This document shows positions 37,594 to 40,373 of a stretch of DNA of 46,657 bases, in pieces. The stretch comes from Candidatus Methylomirabilis sp. (GTDB taxonomy: Bacteria; DYJV01): positions 1 through 46,657 of the forward strand of contig DYJV01000011.1 of the NCBI GenBank assembly GCA_020722945.1. Direction: 5' to 3'. The translations under genes were made by a program, and so were the position numbers. The notes below the pieces were generated by a model. That model saw nothing but the letters and a program-made list of their open reading frames with translations, was not told the DNA's origin and did not search any database. Position 1 is the stretch's first letter, and every line of letters starts with the position of its first letter.

Positions 37594-38814
37594 TTAAAGA
37601 GAATCAAAAACCATTACAGGGACAAGTGAGCCTTTCTTTATATCTTGAACACCCTCCTCAACAATGATAAAGCAATTCCCTTTAAGCATAGATGATAAGA
37701 TACCTGAACCTTGCATACCTGTGGTCGTAACAGTAAATCCCTCTTTACCCTTTTTCAAAACTCCTCTTATAAACTCTGTTCTTAAATCTTTCCTCTCTAT
37801 ATCTTCAGTCAGGAGAGCTTCAAGTTCAAAAAAATCTTTACTCACAGAATTTTGTATCTTCTGAATCAAAGGATAAATAAAGAGATAGTAAGTAGTCATT
37901 GTTGAAACAGGATTGCCGGGAACTCCTATATATAATTTCCTCCCTTTTTTAGCAAGAAATAAAGGTTTACCAGGTTTAACACGGACTCCCCAGAAGATAG
38001 GTGTATACCCCAATTCTGATACAACATCTTTGACAAAGTCATATTCACCCATTGAGACTCCACCTGTTGACACAATAATATCAGCATCAGAGTTGTCAGT
38101 GATTGCTTCAATCAGAGCCTCTTTACTATCTTTTGTTATCCCTGAAAGCCTGACAGATATTTGCTGTTGTTTGAATAACCCCAAAAGAGTAAATCCATTG
38201 GAATTCCTTACTTTACCCTCTACAAAAGTATCATCTATATCAAGAATTTCATTCCCTGTAATAATAACAGAAACAGTAGGCTTTCTATAAACTTTTATAA
38301 ATGCTCTCCCCAATGAACTGAGCATTCCCATAGATGCTGGAGTAATTTTACTCCCTATTTTTATAACTGTATCACCCTTTTTTACATCCTCACCTGCTTT
38401 TCTTACATCAAGAGAAAAGTTAATAGGGTTGTAGATATATACATAACCACTCTCCTCTTTTATAGACTCTTTTCTTATTACAGAATCTGCACCAAAAGGT
38501 ATTATCCCACCGGTCATTATCCTCATTGCCTCAAAACTACCAAGATTTTTTGGAGTAATATCACCAGCAGGAACTTCATCAATAATTTTAAGTTTGACAG
38601 GGTTATCTATGGTTGCACTCAATGTATCAGCCGCTCTAAGAGCAAATCCATCCATTGCCGAATTATCAAAAAAAGGTATATCGTAATCTGATACAATATC
38701 CTCTGCAATTATACGATTAAGAGCATCACAGAGGAATACCTTTTCTACTCCCAGAGTCTCACCACTTTGAAAAATAAGTTCTAATGCCTCTTTATAAGAT
38801 ATATTTTTTAACAT
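37594..38814 (-). CDS. moeA: Molybdopterin molybdenumtransferase
   Basis: This 406-residue MoeA inserts molybdate into adenylated molybdopterin. Landmarks are PFFDNSAMDGFALRA (about 44-58), MRIMTGGIIPFGADSVI (about 96-112), STGGVSMGEYDFVKDV (about 249-264) and the YIGVPGNPVST loop (about 296-306). The length is normal. It starts directly after the BamD-LptA gene with no gap, so both are probably on one transcript. It would supply cofactor to the PsrA-like enzyme 30 kb away. Confidence 0.93.
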   Translation of the reverse strand: MLKNISYKEALELIFQSGETLGVEKVFLCDALNRIIAEDIVSDYDIPFFDNSAMDGFALRAADTLSATIDNPVKLKIIDEVPAGDITPKNLGSFEAMRIMTGGIIPFGADSVIRKESIKEESGYVYIYNPINFSLDVRKAGEDVKKGDTVIKIGSKITPASMGMLSSLGRAFIKVYRKPTVSVIITGNEILDIDDTFVEGKVRNSNGFTLLGLFKQQQISVRLSGITKDSKEALIEAITDNSDADIIVSTGGVSMGEYDFVKDVVSELGYTPIFWGVRVKPGKPLFLAKKGRKLYIGVPGNPVSTMTTYYLFIYPLIQKIQNSVSKDFFELEALLTEDIERKDLRTEFIRGVLKKGKEGFTVTTTGMQGSGILSSMLKGNCFIIVEEGVQDIKKGSLVPVMVFDSL

Positions 38815-40194
38815 CTAATCACCCTGAATAATAATTTTACTTCTATTTTTCTTATCACCTGTCACAAATACCTGCTCTTTTTTAACAAAGAAAATTATCT
38901 TCTCACCATTTATGTAATTCTTCCCATCTTTTAAGTAAGGCTTCCCTTCAAACTCAACTTTATCCTCCTTTACAAAGTATGTAACCTTCTCAGCACTACC
39001 CTCTTTTGTAAAATATGTAACCAAGACATTGTTTAGAGCTTCAATTTTCTTTATGCTTTGGGTGCTATTATCTAAAAAAGCAATTATTTTGTTACTGTTA
39101 ATAGTGAGATCACCCCTTGAAACAACAACATCACCTTCAAATAGAACTTCTTGATCAGATTTTAGGTAAGTTACTTTATTTGCAGAGACATTAACAGGGA
39201 TAATGCCCCTATCATTATCTTTTTTGGAAGACTCTTCTGCTTCAGCAACCTCTGCCTTAACTTTTTCTGAGGTCTCCATTGTAACAAAAGTTCTCTTTTT
39301 GTCCAAGAGATCAGCACTCTCCATAATATCTTCAGGGGATGCAGGATAAGAGAAACTTTGATAACCAGAAATGTAATATTTATCTTTTACATCAAGTTCA
39401 TCGTGAAAGTAGTATTCTTTAACTCTTTGAGTAAAAGAGAAAGGTTTTGGTTTGAGGGTTTTCAATGTGTTGGCTGACCTTTGGTGATATTTACTTTTCG
39501 GAAAATTATCCACTACCTTTTTTAAGCAATCTTTCCCTTTATTCTCCTCACCTTTTAACAAGAGTGAACTCCCAAGGTAGTATAACACTTTATCATCTAT
39601 ATATCCGGGGTACTTTTGTAAAACTTTCTCAAATCTGTAAATAGCTGCTTTATAATTTTTCTTTTTAAAGTAAAAATAACCTATATAAAAATTATTTTTT
39701 GCTATTTTCCTTTTGCATTCGTGCATTCTGTGAGTTGCAATAGCAGAATATTTGCTGTTAGGAAACTCTTTTGTAAGAGCAGAAAAGTAATCGTATGCAA
39801 GATGCAGCTTCGATTGATCCCTATCGATTGTAGATATCTGCTGGAATTGAACCATCCCAAGCTGATACTTGGCATAAGGAACCAACTCATTTTTAGGGTG
39901 AAGTTTTATAAAATCGAGATACGCATTCTCTGCCTCTATATACATCTCAGCCTTGTAGAGACTATCGCAATATTTTATCTCTACTTCATTGATTCTTGAA
40001 TCGAAGGGGAATCTATTTTTAAATTCAAGAAAATTTTCAGAAGCTTTCTCAAATTTCCCTTTACTGTAAAGATCTACAGCATTTGAATAAAGAGGATCTG
40101 CCTCTGTAATTTGGGGGATACTCTTTTTACCACATGAAATCATAAAAAAGATAATAATTGCAAGAAAAATTAGGATGGATTTTATGCTATTCAA
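38815..40194 (-). CDS. Fusion lipoprotein: BamD domain plus LptA/OstA-like domain
   Basis: This 459-residue protein has a signal with lipobox FMISC (lipidated C21). Residues about 30-245 are BamD-like TPR repeats, with the family hallmarks IDRDQSKLHLAYDYF (123-137), FPNSKYSAIATHRM (144-157) and KNYKAAIYRFEKVLQKYPGY (179-198). A charged linker (about 250-335) leads to residues 335-458. These repeat the LptA/OstA pattern: VSANKVTYLKSDQEVLFEGDV, SRGDLTINSNKIIAF, GSAEKVTYFVKEDKVEFEG and INGEKIIFFVKKEQVFV. BamD normally stops near 245 residues, so the LptA-like half is extra. No lptB, lptC or separate lptA is nearby. moeA follows directly. Confidence 0.82.
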   Translation of the reverse strand: MNSIKSILIFLAIIIFFMISCGKKSIPQITEADPLYSNAVDLYSKGKFEKASENFLEFKNRFPFDSRINEVEIKYCDSLYKAEMYIEAENAYLDFIKLHPKNELVPYAKYQLGMVQFQQISTIDRDQSKLHLAYDYFSALTKEFPNSKYSAIATHRMHECKRKIAKNNFYIGYFYFKKKNYKAAIYRFEKVLQKYPGYIDDKVLYYLGSSLLLKGEENKGKDCLKKVVDNFPKSKYHQRSANTLKTLKPKPFSFTQRVKEYYFHDELDVKDKYYISGYQSFSYPASPEDIMESADLLDKKRTFVTMETSEKVKAEVAEAEESSKKDNDRGIIPVNVSANKVTYLKSDQEVLFEGDVVVSRGDLTINSNKIIAFLDNSTQSIKKIEALNNVLVTYFTKEGSAEKVTYFVKEDKVEFEGKPYLKDGKNYINGEKIIFFVKKEQVFVTGDKKNRSKIIIQGD

Positions 40195-40373
40195 CTTTAC
40201 TCCTACTTTTGAAATAAGATATTAAGATAAAATTTTAAGTTAATATAAAATAAACTTGTTAAGAGAAAGATTTAAGAAACATCGTAGCTCCATAATGAGC
40301 TTTAAAAAATAATTTTGATATACTTAAATAGCAAAATTAAAGATTTAGCTATAAATAAAAATAGTTTAAAATA

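Follow-up and report, generated by a model that had tools for sequence, protein, structure and literature searches.

Outer-membrane biogenesis depends on two essential machines, BAM and Lpt, which are built from separate sets of proteins that meet as BAM folds LptD, and the jobs of BamD and LptA are normally carried by separate proteins. Domains of the LptA type pair with one another and with LptD edge to edge, holding LPS in a groove, and LptA homologues bind LPS. LptD is assembled with LptE by BAM, in a step coordinated by BamA and BamD, and stalled LptD intermediates stay at the complex (PMC10567701; PMC13067283); LptA is degraded if its docking sites are improperly assembled (PMC8727689). 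The composition of BAM also varies, with BamB, BamC, and BamE absent from most delta-proteobacteria (PMC3359395) and extra subunits present in Bacteroidota (PMC12578637), and these losses and gains by lineage set a precedent for lineage-specific change in the complex.

Known BamDs (YfiO; TIGR03302/PF13525, e.g. Escherichia coli 5d0o_D) stop after their TPRs or have short extensions, and a 60-residue C-terminal extension is mentioned for alpha-proteobacterial BamD (PMC3359395). LptA (YhbN; TIGR03002/PF03968, e.g. 2r1a) is soluble and periplasmic, has its own signal sequence, and is encoded beside lptB/lptC. The outer-membrane lipoproteins LptM and LptY of the enterobacterial LptDE translocon (PMC10567701, PMC12644819) are also comparable with the protein described here, and the action of LptM on LptD assembly at BAM is the kind of role proposed below for the fused jellyroll, but both are small, separate, not fused to BamD and, as far as is known, unrelated in sequence. 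A lineage-specific enlargement of BAM is likewise found in Bacteroidota, where BamG-K form an extracellular dome of separate proteins (PMC12578637), whereas the present addition is a periplasmic jellyroll joined to BamD. Both the BamD and LptA families are known, and the new part is their covalent union. No description of a BamD-LptA fusion was found in the open-licence papers searched, among them one surveying the lipoproteins of BAM (PMC3359395), and a review of the complex from 2026 (PMC13067283) leaves LptA unmentioned and does not contain the word "fused"; this order of domains may already be recorded in annotated sequence databases.

A BamD Extended by an LptA-type Jellyroll

The stretch of DNA analyzed here (the window) is a contig of 46,657 nucleotides (DYJV01000011.1) from Candidatus Methylomirabilis sp. 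The bamD-lptA fusion gene occupies positions 38815–40194 of the reverse strand as a frame of 459 codons, open throughout with no stops and no frameshifts, with a TTG start and a Shine-Dalgarno-like AGGAG, read from the sequence, 5 nt upstream of it (40200–40204, reverse strand). Residues 1–21 (40132–40194, reverse strand) comprise a predicted outer-membrane lipoprotein signal sequence with the lipobox MISC, the cysteine of which (Cys21) is invariant across an alignment of 40 BamDs. The single unbroken frame with a lipobox that the initial annotation had described is thus borne out. The first base of a moeA-like gene (37594–38814, reverse strand; family recognized by eye) directly follows the fusion stop codon, and the two genes are probably co-transcribed, with no obvious functional tie between them.

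The TPR domain of BamD spans residues 22–250 (39445–40131, reverse strand). The N-terminal half of the protein scores 186.2 bits against the BamD profile TIGR03302 (cut-off 81.4) and 120 bits against Pfam YfiO, and this half matches solved BamDs (E 1e-15). An AlphaFold2 model has a pLDDT of ∼97 over residues 32–250, and its best Foldseek matches are solved BamDs, with TM-scores by target mostly of 0.72–0.92. Arg187 aligns with Arg197 of E. coli BamD, a residue that we take to contact BamA, and a BamA is encoded in the genome (TIGR03303, 617.6 bits). In a search of the genome the fusion was the sole full BamD, so that the BAM lipoprotein itself bears the LptA domain. The protein therefore shares with known BamDs the lipobox, the TPR fold, its place as the only genomic BamD and an arginine at the Arg197 position, and differs from them in continuing beyond the TPRs into an LptA jellyroll.

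The two domains are separated by a linker of ∼80 residues (251–331; 39202–39444, reverse strand). Its first ∼30 residues (KEYYFHDELDVKDKYYISGY) are conserved in a BamD from the same phylum (genome G001) and in the fused BamDs of two families, f268 and f300, of another phylum, both discussed below; the remainder is charged and has low AlphaFold2 confidence.

The LptA-type β-jellyroll itself comprises residues 332–459 (38818–39201, reverse strand). The C-terminal half scores 79.2 bits against LptA (TIGR03002), above the equivalog cut-off of 71.7, and 65.2 bits against Pfam LptD_N (cut-off 20.4), and this half in turn matches solved LptAs (E 7e-8). The C-terminal 138 residues are modeled as an all-β jellyroll with a mean pLDDT of 92.8 (AlphaFold2, with 28 LptA relatives), for which the top solved structure is E. 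coli LptA (2r1a_C; Z 19.5, r.m.s. deviation of 1.6 Å over 126 aligned residues), followed by LptH (4uu4; Z 18.7), LptC (Z 15.7), and LptD (Z 15.5). The domain has the full jellyroll and above-cut-off equivalog score of an LptA but, unlike LptA, it has no signal sequence of its own, following BamD in a continuous frame, it is carried on a lipoprotein, and its gene lies away from the lpt genes. Both the reading of the locus as a lipoprotein BamD with an LptA/OstA domain, through profile searches of the two halves, and the β-jellyroll expected of its C-terminal half are confirmed. As judged from sequence and predicted structure, the gene product is a true BamD, putatively anchored in the outer membrane, with an additional LptA-type jellyroll attached at its C terminus by a flexible linker.

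Separate lpt Genes in the Same Genome

The genome also has its own lptA, in a kdsC-lptC-lptA-lptB-rpoN cluster on contig C23 (all names but lptA assigned by sequence recognition), and an LptD, itself equipped with an LptD_N domain, on contig C152. Because an ordinary lptA is present in the lpt operon, the fused domain is an extra jellyroll and not the bridge itself, which corrects the picture of it as the LPS bridge that had been drawn from the window; the stand-alone genes that the initial annotation had proposed looking for were thus found in part, as lptA in the lpt operon, with the fusion being the only full BamD. The fused domain is 22.8% identical to the operon LptA, and the LptD_N score is 65.2 bits for the former versus 42.5 bits for the latter. 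An origin of the fused domain as a recent copy of the lptA of the genome is disfavored by this identity and by an approximately unbiased (AU) test in one sampling (p 0.0024), but p was 0.074 in another sampling; an older duplication of that gene as the source was not rejected (AU p 0.18–0.21).

Recurrence of the Fusion in Another Phylum

BamD and LptA were found in one open frame in 34 of 297 genomes of another phylum (that of genome G171), in eight families (f267, f268, f270, f280, f283, f300, f312, and f338), and Pfam bore out the fusion in the ten that were sampled. It was present in all nine sampled genomes of f267 and all three of f280, and most genomes of the phylum are without it. A first sweep of 386 genomes (∼260 families), in which at most four candidates were scored per genome, gave no second fusion; none was seen among 24 genomes of the phylum of G064, and searches of other assembled genome contigs and of viral contigs gave no further example. 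The search of relatives that the initial annotation had called for therefore yielded at least 34 genomes in eight families, and the fusion is no one-off. That annotation was aware of no description of such a fusion, and none turned up in the literature searched. G001 (contig JALVYZ010000276.1) was the one genome from the phylum of the window; its BamD is 53% identical to that of the window and runs on into the same linker motif, but the contig stops inside the linker, and any fused domain there would lie past its end.

The linker in the fusions of the other phylum varies from ∼13 to ∼280 residues, with the shortest (∼13–30 residues) in f270 and f312. The neighbors of the fused gene, all recognized by eye, also vary: it lies between an aminotransferase gene and ffh in f267, adjoins mtnA in f300 and f268, precedes rimO in f270 and f283, and is upstream of tolQ/tolR-like genes in f280. 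Nearly all of the fusion genomes have a separate LptA, usually with lptB next door; a stand-alone LptA was not found in G641, G464, and G465, which are drafts from which a contig may be missing. No conserved neighborhood was seen in which bamD and lptA are separate genes.

Selection and History of the Fused Domain

Among pairs of fused genes for which dS was usable, the dN/dS of the fused LptA domain was 0.03–0.16 in f267, f300, and f268 and 0.15–0.34 in f270, about like that of the BamD part (0.07–0.24). Values for the linker were mostly higher, and it evolves faster than both domains. These ratios all come from the phylum of G171. In that phylum the fused LptA domain is kept by purifying selection and is no decaying passenger.

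In a tree of BamD, the window protein has that of G001 as its sister (SH-aLRT 100), and the pair falls with the fused BamDs of f268 and f300 (SH-aLRT 86). A motif after the TPRs, approximately (K/R)(E/D)Y(F/Y) ... D(I/V)xDxY, is common to the BamDs of the window, f268, f300, and G001. Together, the grouping and the motif suggest a common ancestry, whether by descent or by transfer, of the fused forms in the window and in f268/f300. The LptA tree carries too little signal to bear on this ancestry: it is unresolved at depth, with the domain of the window on a long branch, and its backbone gives no link between the fused domains and the LPS-operon copies. AU tests gave p 0.315 for a group of the window with f268/f300 and p 0.217 for all fused domains as one origin, which was thus not rejected. 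The well-supported branches of the BamD tree require the fused state to have changed at least four times, so that several gains or losses of the fusion are likely.

A Possible Role at the BAM Complex

The function that we tentatively favor, while holding it to be somewhat short of probable, is that the BamD-borne jellyroll acts at BAM to couple LptD maturation, or docking of the LPS bridge, to barrel assembly. In the periplasm, BamD would position the jellyroll next to the point of LptD folding by BAM, where it would dock, by the edge-to-edge strand pairing that LptA itself uses, either on the jellyroll at the N terminus of LptD or on soluble LptA. Docking could stabilize LptD during assembly of its barrel or, alternatively, could let the LPS bridge attach once LptD is finished, and outer-membrane protein assembly and LPS delivery would thereby be coupled in place. 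Put more broadly, and with close to even confidence, there may be a conserved branch of BAM in at least two phyla whose own LPS-transport jellyroll physically couples LptD assembly or bridge docking to outer-membrane protein assembly.

In favor of this proposal are the two domains and their folds, the one frame, the lipobox, the occurrence of the fusion in two phyla and in differing gene contexts, purifying selection on the fused jellyroll in the phylum of G171, and the presence of a normal LptA, LptD, and BamA. The published findings on LptD assembly at BAM and on LptA stability speak for it too. The tether from BAM to the LPS bridge that had been suggested for the window agrees with the anatomy of the protein and with a fusion kept under purifying selection, but the linkers of f270 and f312 argue against a long, bridge-anchoring tether; they argue for a jellyroll acting close to BAM, near BamD, with no long reach needed. 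Against the proposal, LptD already carries an N-terminal jellyroll as a docking site, so that there is no obvious need for a further one, and most genomes of the phylum of G171 do without the fusion. Linker length also differs ∼twentyfold across the fusions, so that no fixed geometry is conserved. Finally, the fused domain of the window is on a long branch and has diverged from the operon LptA to the extent given above, and for these reasons it may have changed function.

The same anatomy could serve other ends. The jellyroll might bind LPS or another lipid at BAM and not LptD, keeping lipid near the machine for barrel folding or catching misplaced LPS in the periplasm; we consider this rather unlikely, although the complete LptA fold is retained, the binding of LPS by homologues is established, a short linker near BAM would be enough, and transport is already done by the separate LptA, since domains of this type also have a known part in strand pairing between proteins. 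Alternatively, the jellyroll could itself be a functional piece of the LPS bridge, the fusion being the last, outer-membrane-anchored LptA that hands LPS to LptD and can replace soluble LptA partly or wholly. This would fit an LptD_N match better than that of the operon LptA (65.2 versus 42.5 bits), a score above the LptA equivalog cut-off, and the three genomes in which a stand-alone LptA was not found. Those three are drafts, however, a stand-alone LptA is kept in nearly all of the fusion genomes, and the very short linkers of f270 and f312 limit reach, making such a segment improbable. The domain could also have been re-used as a generic β-rich module of BAM with no link to LPS, for instance to chaperone or scaffold nascent barrels or to bind some other periplasmic partner. 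Other BamDs do have C-terminal additions (NTF2-like of the Cds6_C type in f280, weakly AMIN-like in one other), and the LptA tree does not join the fused domains to LPS-operon copies, but LptA sequence features persist above a curated cut-off after long divergence, and we regard a generic module as quite improbable.

The suggestion that the fusion is neutral or artefactual, with chance read-through or misassembly having joined bamD to an lptA-like gene, takes its force from the state of the genome, a draft of 184 contigs with an estimated contamination of 5.8%. Exact matches between the junction and the rest of the genome, however, do not exceed 17 bases, and there is thus no sign of a repeat-driven misjoin. 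The same domain order in 34 independent genomes, the purifying selection on the fused domain, and the linker motif common to G001 and the fused BamDs of f268/f300 also speak against an artefact, which is largely refuted already and is hardly credible. Misassembly in particular is unsupported, the junction being free of repeats and the architecture recurring in independent genomes.

If the coupling of LptD assembly or bridge docking to BAM is true, the fusion would be a direct covalent link between both essential pathways of outer-membrane biogenesis in at least two phyla. A BAM subunit joined to an LPS-bridge domain, and kept so by conservation and selection, would be a natural experiment suggesting that both machines work at the same spot, and through it the question of how a finished LptD is found or checked by the LPS bridge would become testable.

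Other Domain Combinations

Several further arrangements of these domains were observed. In three f280 proteins (L161, L162, and L165, from G441, G405, and G477, respectively), a third region lies C-terminal to the LptA domain, identified by Pfam in L161 and L165 as a Cds6_C NTF2-like domain. The BamD at L158 (1089–2603, forward strand; G667) has a C-terminal stretch that resembles AMIN weakly (17.2 bits, below the Pfam cut-off). At L063 (733–2994, reverse strand; G296), one open frame with no intervening stop encodes both a hexapeptide acyltransferase of the LpxD type and a BamD that has a lipobox of its own, an arrangement that may be a fusion, an assembly error, or the result of an unusual start. 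LptA is followed by a SPOR domain at L070 (620–1711, reverse strand; G205), and a tandem pair of LptA domains forms one protein at L071 (1079–2146, forward strand; G344), each with an lptB-like gene nearby.
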